Assembly (NCBI RefSeq): GCF_016765585.1
Contig: NZ_JAESWC010000008.1
Coordinates: 124,001-188,000, forward strand
Source: Clostridium rhizosphaerae
GTDB taxonomy: Bacteria; Bacillota; Clostridia; Clostridiales; Clostridiaceae
Direction of reading: 5' to 3'
DNA length: 64,000 nucleotides
Both the position numbers and the translations under genes were made by a program. Numbering within the stretch: the stretch's first letter is position 1; every line of letters starts with the position of its first letter. Under the pieces are notes generated by a model. That model searched no databases and was not told the origin of the DNA. It was given only the letters and a program-made list of their open reading frames with translations. This document shows positions 11,170-60,717 of the stretch, piece by piece.

Positions 11170-11257
11170 AATTAAGAATGAAGATTGAAGAATGAAGAAT
11201 TGAATGATGTTTTTCATTCTTCATTCTTAATTGAATAAACTGCCACGCAGTTTATTC
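11170..11257. repeat. Palindromic repeat between cysK and cysE, plus a second hairpin
   Basis: Perfect 15-bp arms at 11170-11184 and 11218-11232 are built from GAATGAAGA-type units. A second hairpin, 11233-11242 with 11248-11257 (GAATAAACTG/CAGTTTATTC), covers the cysK stop. Similar GAAGAATG/GTAGAATG units recur at 24288-24425. It could modulate read-through into cysE or be a small mobile palindrome. Confidence 0.55.
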
Positions 11258-12163
11258 ATAAAGTCCCATTGAAAGATACTTCTCTCCTCCATCTGGAGCT
11301 ATTGTTACTATCTTTTTACCTGCACCTAGTTCCTTAGCAAGCTTTATGGCAATTGCAACATTGGCACCTGAGGATATACCTATAAGAATTCCTTCCTCTT
11401 TTGCTACTAGTCTTGCTGCTTCAAAAGCTTCTTCTTCGCTTGCAGTAAATACTTTGTCTACGAATTCTTTATTATATATTTCAGGTATGAACCCTGCTCC
11501 TATACCTTGTATCTTATGAGGTCCAGGCTGTCCTCCTGAAATAACTGGAGACTTTTCTGGTTCAACTGCTATGACCTTAACCTCTGGTCTAAGTTCCTTT
11601 AATCTCTTTCCAACTCCTGATATTGTTCCGCCTGTACCTACACCAGCAACAAACATATCTAAATCAGTTACATCCTTAACTATTTCTTCAGCAGTAGTAG
11701 CATAATGTTTGTTTGGATTTGCCTCATTAATAAACTGCTGAGGAATATAAAAGCCTTTTTCATTTTCAGCAATTTCTTGTGCTTTTGCTATAGCACCCTT
11801 CATTCCTTTAGCACCTTCAGTTAAAACAAGTTCTGCTCCATAGGCTCTTATTAAGCTTCTTCTTTCAACACTCATTGTTTCAGGCATAACTATAATAACT
11901 CTATAGCCTTTAAGCCTTCCTATCATAGCTAAGGCTATTCCTGTATTTCCACTAGTTGGCTCTACTATTGTATCACCTGCTTTAATAAGACCTAATTCTT
12001 CTGCCTTTTCTATCATTCCAAGTGCTGCTCTATCTTTAACACTTCCGCCTGGATTATACTTTTCAAGCTTAAGATAAATCTCAGCCATACCTTCCTTTAC
12101 TATATTATTAAGTTTTAATAAAGGTGTATTACCTACCATTTCCAATGTATTATTAAATATCAT
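11252..12163 (-). CDS. cysK: Cysteine synthase A (O-acetylserine sulfhydrylase)
   Basis: 303 residues, fold-type II PLP enzyme. It makes L-cysteine from O-acetylserine and sulfide. Lys43 in NPGGSVKDRA is the PLP lysine. The substrate loop TSGNTG (residues 70-75) and the phosphate-binding GTGGT further on are intact. A strong AAGGAGG site precedes the ATG. It is first in the cysK-cysE unit behind a T-box. Confidence 0.96.
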   Translation of the reverse strand: MIFNNTLEMVGNTPLLKLNNIVKEGMAEIYLKLEKYNPGGSVKDRAALGMIEKAEELGLIKAGDTIVEPTSGNTGIALAMIGRLKGYRVIIVMPETMSVERRSLIRAYGAELVLTEGAKGMKGAIAKAQEIAENEKGFYIPQQFINEANPNKHYATTAEEIVKDVTDLDMFVAGVGTGGTISGVGKRLKELRPEVKVIAVEPEKSPVISGGQPGPHKIQGIGAGFIPEIYNKEFVDKVFTASEEEAFEAARLVAKEEGILIGISSGANVAIAIKLAKELGAGKKIVTIAPDGGEKYLSMGLYE

Positions 12164-12271: not shown

Positions 12272-12555
12272 AAAAATAAAAACTCCGCCTCTTATAAATA
12301 TAAGAGACGAAGTTAAACTTCGCGGTTCCACTCTAATTGGATAAATTATCCCACCTTACTCGAGCACATTATCATGCTCTATCACTATAACGGGTGAACC
12401 CGATGCAGCCTACTGTATAAATTAAAATTTATATTTCGGCACATAGCTCCGAAGGGCACTTCACATAAGCTTCTTCATAGAAACCCTCTCAGCTTTGGGA
12501 ATCCTCTCTGTATGTTCCATCTATGCTACTTTCCTTCTTCACAGCATTTCCGACT
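12272..12555 (-). promoter_or_regulatory. T-box leader (tRNA-Cys) of cysK-cysE
   Basis: The minus strand carries the conserved T-box GAGTGGAACCGCG (around 12319-12333). Upstream is a stem I with AGAGAGGA and GCTGAGAG features. The terminator pairs 12281-12294 with 12301-12314 and is followed by T residues. The specifier loop reads GAAGTGCCC, giving a TGC (Cys) codon at 12456-12458. The UGGA bulge matches the U73-CCA end expected of tRNA-Cys. Uncharged tRNA-Cys should therefore prevent termination and switch on cysteine synthesis. Confidence 0.93.
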
Positions 12556-13484: not shown

Positions 13485-13519
13485 AAAAAAACCCCACAGC
13501 ATATTTACTGCAAGGTTTT
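13485..13519 (-). terminator. Rho-independent terminator of the Mg-NRAMP operon
   Basis: The stem AAAACC(TT)GCAG pairs with CTGTGGGGTTTT around a short loop and runs into seven T on the minus strand, directly after the transporter gene. Confidence 0.75.
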
Positions 13520-13527
13520 ATAGCATT

Positions 13528-14754
13528 TTATAAAAAGGAGCTTACGAGCGTAATAACAGTCAAAACTATTATCAATAAAACTGTAGTTTTTGATATAAAA
13601 TTTTGAAGTTTGTTATTTGTATGCTCTCCCATAACTTCTTTATCATTGACTAAATTAATCATAAAAATTAATACTACAGGACAAAGTATTCCTGCTAACT
13701 GCTGAGTTACAAGAATTATTTTAATAAGAGATATTCCTGGAAATAGTACTATAATAGCACTGACAATAATGATAAATAAGAATAAACCAAAAAACACCGG
13801 TGCTTCTTTGATTTTATTATTTAACCCGCTTTCAAAACCAAAAGCTTCACAAACTGCATAAGAGGTTGAAAGTGGAATAACAAAACATGCTAAAAATGAT
13901 GCTCCAAAAAGTCCTACTGCAAATAGAATAAAGGAATAACTCCCCGCCAAAGGCTTAAGAGCTAACGCTGCATCCTGAGCAGTGTTTATATTTATACCAA
14001 ACTTATGAAGAGTTTCTGCCGTACATATAGTTATGAATAAGGCTGTTAATACTCCCCAAAAAGTTCCTAAATAAACATCCAGCTGCTCATACTTGTAATC
14101 TTTAAGTGATATCCCCTTATCTACAATAGAGGATTGAAGATAAAACTGCATATAAGGAGTTATGGTTGTACCTACCATTCCAATTAAGGCTAAAGAATAA
14201 TCCTTTGTAAAATTAGCATTTGGTCGTACAACACTTGTAAAAACTTCTGGCCAATGTGGTTTTACTAAAAATGCAGTTATAACATAACTGAAAAATGTAA
14301 GAGTAAGTCCTAGAAATACCTTTTCAGCTGTTGAGTAATCTCCCTTCATTAAAATAAAAGGGATTAAGAAAGTGATAATTGGTATTGAAAAATATTTACT
14401 TATATGAAATAATTCCAAACTTGCCGCAATACCTGCAAAATCGCCAATACAAACTCCTATATTAGCTACTAATAGTACAAACATCGCAAAGAACGCAAGT
14501 TTAACACCGTATCTTTCTCTTATTAAATCTGATAAGCCTTTTCCTGTAACTACAGCCATCCTTGCGTTCATTTCCTGAATAACTGCAAGACCTATTCCTA
14601 TTGCAAATAGTCCCCACAGCATTGAGTATCCGTATTGTGCACCAATAACAGAATAAGTAGTTACTCCACCGGCATCATTTCCTGCATTGGCTGTAATTAA
14701 TCCTGGTCCTAATATTGTTAATACAAATAAAAATTTGTTCCATCTTTTCTTCAT
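13528..14754 (-). CDS. NRAMP-related divalent cation transporter, probable Mg2+ importer
   Basis: 408 residues with about eleven membrane helices, NRAMP fold. The two metal-site motifs depart from Mn2+/Fe2+ transporters. Helix 1 reads NAGNDAGG (residues 23-30), so canonical DPGN is DAGG at 27-30. Helix 6 reads ITPYMQ, so canonical MPH is Thr199-Pro200-Tyr201 and the transition-metal-preferring Met is lost. NRAMP-related magnesium transporters described from C. acetobutylicum and Eggerthella lenta have altered motifs at these places. The gene lies 34 bp behind an MgtE-like regulatory protein in an operon led by an M-box, which supports Mg2+ import. Older automatic labels would read manganese transporter. 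Confidence 0.85.
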   Translation of the reverse strand: MKKRWNKFLFVLTILGPGLITANAGNDAGGVTTYSVIGAQYGYSMLWGLFAIGIGLAVIQEMNARMAVVTGKGLSDLIRERYGVKLAFFAMFVLLVANIGVCIGDFAGIAASLELFHISKYFSIPIITFLIPFILMKGDYSTAEKVFLGLTLTFFSYVITAFLVKPHWPEVFTSVVRPNANFTKDYSLALIGMVGTTITPYMQFYLQSSIVDKGISLKDYKYEQLDVYLGTFWGVLTALFITICTAETLHKFGININTAQDAALALKPLAGSYSFILFAVGLFGASFLACFVIPLSTSYAVCEAFGFESGLNNKIKEAPVFFGLFLFIIIVSAIIVLFPGISLIKIILVTQQLAGILCPVVLIFMINLVNDKEVMGEHTNNKLQNFISKTTVLLIIVLTVITLVSSFL

Positions 14755-14788
14755 TTACTGCACCTTCTTTCCATAAACTAAAAAAGTT

Positions 14789-16051
14789 CTAACTGACTTT
14801 TTTAGTACGTCTTCTCCAGGTTGGAAGGAAGACTTCATCTATAATATCCGTCATTATTACTATACCGCAAAGTTTATCTTCCTCATTAACCACAGGCATG
14901 GAAAGAAGGTCATATTTTACTGCAAGTTCTATAGACTCATCTATTCTTTCATCATCTTTAACCTTTATTACATTTGTATCCATAATATCCTTAAGCTTGT
15001 TTTCCGGAGCTGAAACAATTAAATCTCTAAGCGATACAACCCCATTAAGCTTTTCTTCTTCATCAACAATATATATATAGTAAGCTACTTCATCATCCGG
15101 TTTAAGTTCTCTTAAAAGTTCTATAGTTTCCTGTGTTGTTATATTAACATTAAAAGCTATAAAATCTTTATTCATTATACTTCCAACAGTTTCCTCTTCA
15201 TATTCCATAAGCACTCTGACTTCATCAGCGTCTTCTTTTTCCATGCTCATAAGAAGTTTTTCTGCTGTTTCTTCATCTACTTCATCAAGTATATCCGCAA
15301 TTTCATCATTTGGCATGCTGTCAAAAACCTCAACCATTTTGGATTCACTAAGGCTTTCTAAAAGATCCTTTTGAATTTCAGGCTCTATTTCTTCAAAGGT
15401 ATCCGCTGCTAAATCTTCATCTAGACTTTCAAATACCTTAGCTCTATAATTTACATCCATTTCTTCTAATATATCTGCTAAGTCTGCAGGATGAAGCTTT
15501 GAAAGCTTTTGATATGGAACTGTAAGCTTGAGATTATCATTTACCATTTCAAGAGATTCAACACTTTCCCACATTATCAAACTATCGGAGGCATTTTTGT
15601 TCATTAAATTATAGAAGCCTTTTACAACCCCTTCAATTCCAAGTCTTCTTCCTAAAGCTAAAACTCCTGTGTCAACCGCAAGCACTCTAAGTTCTCCTGC
15701 TATCTCGCCCATTCTAAGGTCATTAACTCTTACAAGCTTCTTGCCATTTATATCAACAATCTGTTTGTCTAAAAGATGTTTTGATAAAAGATAGGAAAAA
15801 CTTCTTGGTATAATTTCCTTTGCATCCTTAACTTTTATTAGTATATCTCTTTCATCTTCATAGAAATCAATATTTCTAAATTCGTAGTTAAAGATTTCTC
15901 CATCCTTTTTTATCTTATAGCCAATTGCTCTTGGATATCCATCTTCCGTAGTTACATAAATATCCCATACCTTACCAATAACATCGTCATACTCATCATA
16001 AACTTTCTTGTATAAAATGTTGCTTAAAAAGAAATTGGTTAGCTTTTTCAT
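14789..16051 (-). CDS. Soluble MgtE-like protein: PRC-barrel, MgtE N-domain and two CBS domains
   Basis: 420 residues with no membrane helix. The N-terminal half holds two PRC-barrel-like segments (about 5-65 and 90-165). An MgtE N-domain superhelix follows (about 180-285, LHPADLADILEEMD). A CBS pair ends the protein (about 290-415; second CBS LSMPVVNEEDKLCGIVIMTD). In true MgtE these modules sense cytosolic Mg2+ and gate the attached membrane domain. Here that domain is absent and the next gene is an NRAMP-type transporter. I infer it is a separate Mg2+ sensor or gate for that transporter. ATG 16049-16051 has the better-spaced GAGGAG site; 16055-16057 is too close. Confidence 0.87.
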   Translation of the reverse strand: MKKLTNFFLSNILYKKVYDEYDDVIGKVWDIYVTTEDGYPRAIGYKIKKDGEIFNYEFRNIDFYEDERDILIKVKDAKEIIPRSFSYLLSKHLLDKQIVDINGKKLVRVNDLRMGEIAGELRVLAVDTGVLALGRRLGIEGVVKGFYNLMNKNASDSLIMWESVESLEMVNDNLKLTVPYQKLSKLHPADLADILEEMDVNYRAKVFESLDEDLAADTFEEIEPEIQKDLLESLSESKMVEVFDSMPNDEIADILDEVDEETAEKLLMSMEKEDADEVRVLMEYEEETVGSIMNKDFIAFNVNITTQETIELLRELKPDDEVAYYIYIVDEEEKLNGVVSLRDLIVSAPENKLKDIMDTNVIKVKDDERIDESIELAVKYDLLSMPVVNEEDKLCGIVIMTDIIDEVFLPTWRRRTKKVS

Positions 16052-16087
16052 AGTCATTCTCCTCTCTTTTTGCAGAGGAATGCCTAA

Positions 16088-16171
16088 TCAGAATAGAACA
16101 GCCTCCCTCTGCCTGTATTTAATTTTCGCTTTAAAATTGTCCTCTCGTATCGAGGGGCACCGTCCATTCAT
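16088..16171 (-). CDS. Possible 27-codon leader ORF between M-box and the MgtE-like gene
   Basis: An ATG at 16169-16171 follows a GGTGGTGAG site and opens 27 codons (MNGRCPSIREDNFKAKIKYR then QREAVLF) before TGA. It lies past the M-box terminator and 36 bp before the MgtE-like gene. The peptide is basic with no membrane segment and no known family. It may be a translated leader or chance; hairpins in the same stretch (CCTCTCGTATCGAGGGG) could explain the conservation of spacing instead. Confidence 0.3.
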   Translation of the reverse strand: MNGRCPSIREDNFKAKIKYRQREAVLF

Positions 16172-16230
16172 CTCACCACCCAATAAGTATAATTATTTTG
16201 CCCAAATATTGGTTTATAAATGAAAGAAAA

Positions 16231-16421
16231 TAAAAAAAGAGCGCAAAGGCTCTCTAAAATTCAACAATAGCTTTCGTTGAGTTTTAGCACTATAGGGCGT
16301 AAGACAAAAGTCTAAGCTGCATTAGATAAAACCTTAATTCGGTAGTATCTGTTGACCATGAGTTGGCATCTCTCGATGTTTCCCGGTAGCAGCGTATATC
16401 CATATAGGAGCCTCACCTAAC
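16231..16421 (-). promoter_or_regulatory. M-box (ykoK) magnesium riboswitch with terminator
   Basis: The minus strand begins GTTAGGTGAGGCTCC at 16421. It continues with the family landmarks TACGCTGCTACC, GGTCAACAGA, TTAAGGTTTTATCTAATGCAG and GCTAAAACTCAACG, closely following the M-box consensus. A terminator stem, 16238-16242 with 16249-16253, leads into a long T run. An alternative stem (CTAAAACTCAAC with GTTGAATTTTAG) can form before it. In this family Mg2+ binding favours the terminator, so low Mg2+ turns the downstream genes on. Confidence 0.96.
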
Positions 16422-16445
16422 AAATATATTTTCTTTACACTATAA

Positions 16446-16473
16446 ATTATATTACAAAAAACTTTAAATGCAA
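16446..16473 (-). promoter_or_regulatory. Sigma-A type promoter of the Mg-NRAMP operon
   Basis: On the minus strand TTGCAT (16468-16473) and a perfect TATAAT (16446-16451) are 16 bases apart, about 25 bases ahead of the M-box 5' end. Confidence 0.7.
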
Positions 16474-29913: not shown

Positions 29914-30044
29914 TCCCATAGAAAGGTTCTAGTCAAAAAATAAAAAATAATCCTATTTAGGTGGCCCGGCTGTCATAGAATTGCTTCCTTAGACCCGCAG
30001 CTTTGCGTCTTTATTTTTCAATAAATTTGCCATTTTCTATGGGA
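29914..30044 (-). promoter_or_regulatory. Cyclic di-GMP-I (GEMM) riboswitch of the LPXTG gene
   Basis: On the minus strand the aptamer (about 30034 to 29960) reads TGGCAAA, GACGCAAAGC, GGGTCTAAGG, then ATGACAGCCGGGCCACC. These are the landmarks of the GEMM-I consensus. An exact 11-bp inverted repeat, 30034-30044 with 29914-29924, encloses the whole aptamer. Its 3' arm ends about 10 bases before the AGGGGG ribosome binding site. A T-rich stretch (29930-29950) follows the aptamer. Whether control is by termination, by this long-range stem, or both is not decided, nor is the direction (on or off). Confidence 0.9.
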
Positions 30045-60462: not shown

Positions 60463-60483
60463 GTTATAAAATATTAAGCTTTG

Positions 60484-60717
60484 AACAGGAATAGTAATAT
60501 TGCAATCAATTTAAGAGAGCTGTTGTCTGGTGCAAAACAGTATTTGATGAAATATGAACTCGTCTGGGAGCATACCTGCAGAAAAGCAGGTACGGTAAAT
60601 CCGTTATCTTTTTAAGCTGAGATTTATGATATATTTTTTCCTTTTCATAAATCTAATTAGAGTGGTACCGCGGAATTTTAATCTTTCGTCTCTTTTATGA
60701 GATTGAAGGATTTTTTT
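60484..60717 (+). promoter_or_regulatory. T-box leader (tRNA-Leu) of leuS
   Basis: Stem I includes AGAGAGC and GAACTCGTCTGGG, giving the specifier codon CTC (Leu) at 60559-60561. The T-box AGAGTGGTACCGCGG is at about 60659-60673; UGGT fits the A73-CCA end of tRNA-Leu. A terminator (ATCTTTCGTCTC with GAGATTGAAGGAT, 60681-60713) leads into a T run. Uncharged tRNA-Leu should allow read-through into leuS. Confidence 0.95.

Follow-up and report, generated by a model that had tools for sequence, protein, structure and literature searches.

How does Clostridium rhizosphaerae adjust the import of Mg2+? The question is raised by a locus in the window analysed here, i.e. the 64,000 nucleotides (nt) at positions 124,001-188,000 of the forward strand of contig NZ_JAESWC010000008.1 (assembly GCF_016765585.1). 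On its minus strand an M-box Mg2+ riboswitch, a terminator-like stem, a short open reading frame (ORF), a soluble PRC-barrel/MgtE_N/CBS protein (hereafter the sensor) and an NRAMP-related transporter follow one another as one apparent operon (Table 1). This is almost certainly a Mg2+-import operon of the published NrmT type, under Mg2+ control. The kind of operon, the pairing of sensor with NrmT and the idea of feedback between them are known; what is new is the presence of a riboswitch, an acidic-proline leader and a protein sensor in series. The short ORF, beginning MDGAP and overlooked in the first-pass annotation of this DNA, is conserved, and its pattern M-[D/E]-x-x-P extends beyond the locus in the window. 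We marginally favour the view that such MgtL-like leaders are a widespread Mg2+ gauge before sensor-NrmT operons and MgtE genes of Clostridia, some Bacilli and Bacteroidota, and not an enterobacterial speciality, and that in the window a single mRNA would read Mg2+ by riboswitch, by ribosome and then by protein sensor.

The leader was defined as an ORF starting at ATG, with Asp or Glu at codon 2 and Pro at codon 5, of 8-50 codons and no more than 300 nt from the sensor start. It is present before 68 of 102 sensor genes (67/102 within 260 nt), compared with a mean of 0.9 and a maximum of 5 in 25 rounds of dinucleotide shuffling. The register is fixed. Where Pro is at codon 5, residue 2 is Asp in 41 loci, Glu in 27 and any other residue in no more than two; where residue 2 is acidic, 68 loci have Pro at codon 5, and no other position between codons 3 and 9 carries it in more than three. 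At codon 4, 41 of 67 leaders have Gly, 10 have Val and 9 have Asp; the leader of the window has Asp2 and Ala4. A stretch resembling a ribosome-binding site precedes 48/68 leaders, compared with 16/235 of the remaining short ORFs that start at ATG in these regions. L208 (the same as L044) was left out of the count, L046 was taken as having no leader and about ten further sensors lie outside it (near-identical, not listed, or with a short flank). The 102 regions include four pairs with a similarity of 90% or more. The rule was derived on these 102 loci, and hence was retested on a separate class draw. Leaders were found there before 9/17 sensors (shuffles mean 0.1, maximum 2), or 8/16 after removal of L333, which is L047 again. 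Among control genes 12/404 were flagged, but nine of the 12 are sensor genes that had passed the filter, so that 3 of at most 395 remain. The shuffles, the fixed register, the fresh draw and the control genes together rule out a chance match of the pattern.

Leaders are not confined to sensor genes. The same rule finds them upstream of 11/57 MgtE channel genes (shuffles mean 0.6, maximum 2), and a looser rule, allowing any NTG start and Pro at codon 4 or 5, does so for 28/57 (shuffles mean 5.4, maximum 8). Examples from these regions (L270-L326) are MDADPSNKC and MESVPW, and an M-box was found in one of the 17 regions scanned. When the stretches between M-box and sensor were read, most loci of the Clostridium group proved to have the short ORF, whether or not M-box and NrmT are present. 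Among the 65 sensor loci scanned, M-box and leader occur together in 19; the leader alone is found in 25, the M-box alone in 6, and neither in the other 15. No leader was seen in seven stretches upstream of NrmT genes that stand away from a sensor, their starts being estimated. CorA of the organism's own genome was considered as a leader target and dropped, one weak TTG-start candidate being found at one of three genes.

A close parallel is E. coli MgtL (MEPDP), a short ORF before the Mg2+ uptake gene mgtA that also has an acid at codon 2 and Pro at codon 5; the shared register suggests a ribosome-based Mg2+ gauge. Ribosomes are more prone to drop off MgtL at EPDP when Mg2+ is low, a response that is lost when Glu2 and Asp4 are changed (PMC11282234). 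However, MgtL has its second acid at codon 4, where the window's leader and most others have none, and it controls Rho-dependent termination, whereas the effect here would fall on translation. The leader therefore has the short ORF, the early acid and proline and the position before a Mg2+ transport gene, but not the two early acids; we do not class it as a member of the MgtL type, while noting that it may work like MgtL. In Salmonella MgtQ, Asp2 and Glu5 favour a refolding of the RNA that frees the mgtB ribosome-binding site (PMC8092293). This is again an acidic short ORF with alternative stems freeing a ribosome-binding site, but it has 8 codons and lies between mgtC and mgtB. The mycobacterial Rv1805A upstream ORF (PMC12810186) follows an M-box and is short and conserved, with a proline that does not vary; in contrast to ours the proline is at codon 7, and the ORF, called mycobacteria-specific, lies before pe20 and goes with a translational M-box. 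A literature search that took in few subscription papers or bioRxiv-only preprints brought up these three systems and the 5′ region of E. coli corA; for Clostridia, Bacilli or Bacteroidota it revealed no leader of this kind in front of NrmT, the NrmT partner or mgtE.

The riboswitch is a full-length match to RF00380 (model positions 1-169 of 169; 138.3 bits, E 4.2e-31, gathering score 44 bits), and is the sole M-box found in the genome. A pattern scan gave four terminator-like sites where 1.2 were expected, with such stems after the aptamer and after the NRAMP gene. The first-pass annotation had proposed an M-box, a terminator and a promoter; the M-box and terminators are borne out, while promoter-like matches are at chance level (16 found, 15.9 expected), giving the promoter no support. 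In the M-box class sufficient Mg2+ is known to fold the aptamer and stop transcription, and the match together with the terminator suggests that this probably happens here. Mg2+ control of the gene pair is well supported.

The transporter gene has an NRAMP match of 314 bits in Pfam, and encodes the motifs NDAGG and TTITPYM, in agreement with the DAGG and TPY described earlier; both further NRAMPs of the genome carry DPGN and MPH. Its best solved relative is 7qia (E 3.5e-106; the next entry is at E 3.8e-25), which we take to be EleNRMT. Having the NRAMP fold, altered metal motifs and the known members as its closest relatives, the protein belongs with NrmT, and its identity as a Mg-type NRAMP is well supported.

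Shin et al. (2014; PMC4072509) described M-boxes upstream of genes related to NRAMP, for the most part from Clostridia and Deltaproteobacteria. They named the group NrmT and found that two C. acetobutylicum genes rescued Mg2+ but not Mn2+ uptake. Most of the group adjoins a gene like the cytoplasmic domain of MgtE, and they speculated that this fragment regulates NrmT by feedback in the cytoplasm or serves as a metal chaperone. The operons share with ours the M-box, the MgtE-cytoplasmic-domain-like gene, the NRAMP-related Mg2+ transporter and the feedback idea. The PRC domain, the leader ORF and partner-only loci are not mentioned in the parts of that paper covered, and neither 'PRC' nor 'CBS' occurs in its text as available to us. 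The terms 'operon' and 'riboswitch' were not found in the accessible part of the EleNRMT paper (PMC8806188), and a literature search found nothing joining MgtE_N or PRC-barrel terms with NRAMP. The proposal that a detached MgtE module gates the transporter had been offered as new in the first-pass annotation. In this it was anticipated by the 2014 paper, but the rest of that reading, i.e. Mg2+ control, a Mg-type NRAMP and a recurring neighbourhood, is supported.

The sensor comprises a PRC-barrel sequence at the N terminus, which had gone unmentioned, MgtE_N at residues 188-289 and a CBS pair. It is the sole MgtE_N match in the genome, and the MgtE channel domain PF01769 has no match in either the protein or the genome, confirming the earlier description of an MgtE N domain and CBS with no membrane channel. 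It scores 174 bits against NCBIfam mgtE (cut-off 233). Judged by these domain matches it is not an MgtE, yet has the sensor half of MgtE in common. The MgtE Mg2+-site residues D91, D95 and D247 (PMC5882242) correspond to D251, D255 and D404 of the sensor; these are kept in 70, 72 and 72 of 72 paired sensors, and each is invariant (28/28) in the unpaired sensors of the Clostridium group. The sensor thus resembles the MgtE cytosolic domain in its N domain, CBS pair and conserved Mg4 and Mg6 acidic residues, but has no membrane part, has two N-terminal PRC-type beta domains and has Leu in place of Phe227. The PRC half gave no match to solved structures; folded alone, the sensor reached a predicted template-modelling score (pTM) of 0.51. 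ATG 16051 is its likelier start, because ATG 16057 sits almost on the ribosome-binding site.

The pairing of sensor and NrmT recurs. When 299 genomes were drawn evenly from the phylum, the sensors scored 236 bits or more, clearly separated from MgtE channels at no more than 170 bits; NrmT genes were counted at 350 bits or more. Among 30 sensors, 27 have NrmT directly downstream, one is at a contig edge and two are non-adjacent. All 28 NrmT genes adjoin a sensor (coordinates compared by eye), one such sensor being frame-shifted (L207) and one NrmT lying in two frames (G045). Addition of 79 named loci gave 105 distinct sensors, of which 72 are paired (70 by script, and L070 and L105 by reading), 32 unpaired and one unknown; 40 duplicate sensor ORFs were left out, L031 (contig end) does not count in the pairing, and L033-L035, being MgtE loci, are not in the sensor set. 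The two genes are widely separated in G335 and G336, with an M-box at each of them (L215/L266 and L216/L265), giving independent support for one Mg2+ programme; in G370 an M-box was found only at the NrmT half (L260) and none at L214. No natural fusion of sensor and NrmT was seen among the loci read. At L207 (2153-5097) a frame change within MgtE_N breaks the sensor gene, with an M-box and an open-frame NrmT alongside. On one Bacteroidales contig (L065, 4962-10847) two sensor-NrmT pairs face each other.

The sensor also stands alone, at 28 loci of the window's own Clostridium group, some of these genomes being metagenome assemblies of unknown completeness. Of 14 read gene by gene, 12 have the neighbours seen in the window (hydrolase, cysK or cysE). 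When the PRC2 columns are excluded from the tree, a starred clade of 30 rows contains just two that are paired, the window and L036. Among 11 other genomes of the window's family in the class draw the best sensor adjoins NrmT in one. In G535 of that draw the second sensor copy is also paired. In these relatives, then, the partner outlasts the transporter. At L204 (5983-9408; G003) a permease with KimA as its sole solved relative (E 3.9e-110) lies 190 bases downstream of an unpaired sensor; this may be a chance neighbour. Genomes with the partner but no NrmT, and those with the genes apart, provide natural controls for the role of the MgtE-like partner.

Loss of the transporter is accompanied by change in the second PRC region (PRC2, residues 83-180, a boundary set by us), whose conserved stretch lies around LLDKQIVDxNGxKVVRVND. 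Of 53 columns conserved to at least 93% in the 72 paired proteins, those falling below 80% in the 28 orphans are 9/20 in PRC2 and 3/29 in N plus CBS (Fisher p 0.008, with ancestry not corrected). A four-residue PRC2 signature is intact in 83/86 rows with NrmT in the genome and in 7/27 without. For six independent pairs, taken on starred branches, the average in which the signature followed NrmT was 0.6, with no case of the reverse, in a test that cannot reach significance. These data hint that PRC2 may face NrmT; the changes are for the most part those of a single clade and the test that allows for phylogeny is without power, and we do not claim the PRC motif as a proven interface.

We propose a scheme with three levels. 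Enough Mg2+ would fold the M-box aptamer and end transcription. In those transcripts that continue, ribosomes at low Mg2+ would fall off or pause at the acidic/proline start of the leader, whereupon the leader RNA would refold and free the ribosome-binding site of the sensor; at high Mg2+ the leader would be translated through and the site would close. Lastly, the soluble protein would read cytosolic Mg2+ through its conserved MgtE-type acidic residues and damp NrmT, docking on it perhaps through the PRC region. The scheme as a whole, with either the leader gauge or the gating of NrmT (or both) correct, we regard as likely.

The conservation of the leader ORF is an observation; its response to Mg2+ and the refolding are suggested by MgtL and MgtQ. 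In the minimum free energy fold the end of the leader overlaps one arm of a predicted hairpin, the other arm lying just before the sensor ribosome-binding site. Leaders form more stable folds than shuffled sequences do (mean z -2.8; z < -1 in 28/31), with z -1.3 in the window. Modelled accessibility of the Shine-Dalgarno sequence is 0.34 free, 0.45 with an early ribosome and 0.41 with a late one, in weak support of the scheme. Several results speak against it. Early exceeds late in just 28/45 cases, and the values for the window are 0.57 free, 0.92 early and 0.92 late. Among 31 leaders, alternative pairing runs with p up to 0.05 number 6 for anti-site/site, 12 for arm/anti-site and 3 for both, and in the window neither helix has a long run by this measure. 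Moreover 34/102 sensors have no leader under the rule. The ORF might instead be kept for ordinary reasons (RNA structure at the start, translational coupling or another ligand) with no sensing of Mg2+, an explanation that we find the less convincing but take seriously. CCC or CCT and neighbouring bases can pair with the leader end in some Clostridium-group folds, the Pro codon of MgtQ matters through base pairing (PMC8092293), and Pro codons are skewed (CCT 53, CCC 8, CCG 7). Yet Asp, Glu and Gly are encoded by several codons, and the same register occurs before Bacteroidota sensors with no obvious ribosome-binding site, before MgtE genes and in MgtL itself. By analogy with the enterobacterial leaders we lean towards a Mg2+-responsive attenuator. 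If this is true, a leader start that destabilises ribosomes at low Mg2+ would be a simple sensor common across phyla, and would bear on Mg2+ sensing in bacteria that have no PhoPQ, or no M-box at the locus.

For the last level it matters what NrmT carries and whether the sensor acts on it. The NrmT of Acidobacterium capsulatum, which has the partner and no M-box, is likely to be a Mn2+ importer (PMC4072509); that the window's protein should import mainly Mn2+ or Fe2+ is nevertheless very improbable, given the M-box control, the replacement of DPGN/MPH by NDAGG/TPY, the best relative in the PDB and the two ordinary NRAMPs elsewhere in the genome. Whether the sensor gates NrmT is evenly balanced in our judgement. 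The C. acetobutylicum NrmT worked without its partner, and Mg2+ rescue was no better when the A. capsulatum partner was co-expressed (PMC4072509). Both count against gating, as do the Mn2+-importer behaviour of the A. capsulatum transporter and the orphan sensors of those Clostridium-group genomes in which NrmT is lacking. Also against the scheme are the variable MgtE Mg5 positions D383 and D407 among sensors, and the replacement of Phe227, which stacks on ATP, by Leu in 69/72 paired sensors. Phe227 is required for ATP binding in MgtE (PMC5529423), and with Leu at this position (L384 of the sensor) ATP binding may be lost or altered. A structure prediction for the complex, proposed in the first-pass annotation, gave no confident interface (tandem fold, pTM 0.64). 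The soluble protein could instead be a stand-alone sensor of Mg2+ (or a nucleotide), or a chaperone, for another target, merely sharing the operon; this is possible, if rather doubtful. It would fit the 28 unpaired loci, 23 of them in genomes with no NrmT-like hit at 150 bits or more, the M-box still present at 6/28, the KimA-like neighbour in G003 and the co-expression result above. It fits poorly with the invariable adjacency of NrmT to a sensor in the phylum draw, with the M-box kept on each separated gene in G335 and G336, and with a PRC2 signature that goes with NrmT, the last not being independent of ancestry.

Table 1. Features of the sensor-NrmT operon, in positions of the window.
Feature	Position	Strand	Basis
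M-box Mg2+ riboswitch aptamer (RF00380)	16263-16431	-	cmscan, full-length match
Terminator-like stem 3′ of the aptamer	16236-16255	-	pattern scan, 7 pairs then T run; folds
Leader ORF MDGAPRYERTILKRKLNTGRGRLFYSD (then stop), with GGGTGGTGA directly upstream	16084-16167	-	translation; conserved pattern
Predicted hairpin of the leader ORF end and the stretch before the sensor ribosome-binding site	16072-16112	-	minimum free energy fold; position is a reading of the fold
Soluble PRC-barrel/MgtE_N/CBS sensor protein	14789-16057	-	domain matches; likely start 16051
NrmT-type NRAMP-related transporter (NDAGG, TTITPYM)	13528-14754	-	Pfam; best solved relative 7qia
Terminator-like hairpin at the operon end, after the NRAMP gene	13488-13519	-	pattern scan, 14 pairs

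Three further RNA elements lie in the window. A T-box leader (12300-12551, minus strand; 107 bits) stands just before a cysteine synthase-like gene (11252-12163), a gene order common to relatives. There is a c-di-GMP-I riboswitch at 29957-30041 on the minus strand (80.9 bits), and a second T-box at 60472-60696 on the plus strand (140.1 bits).

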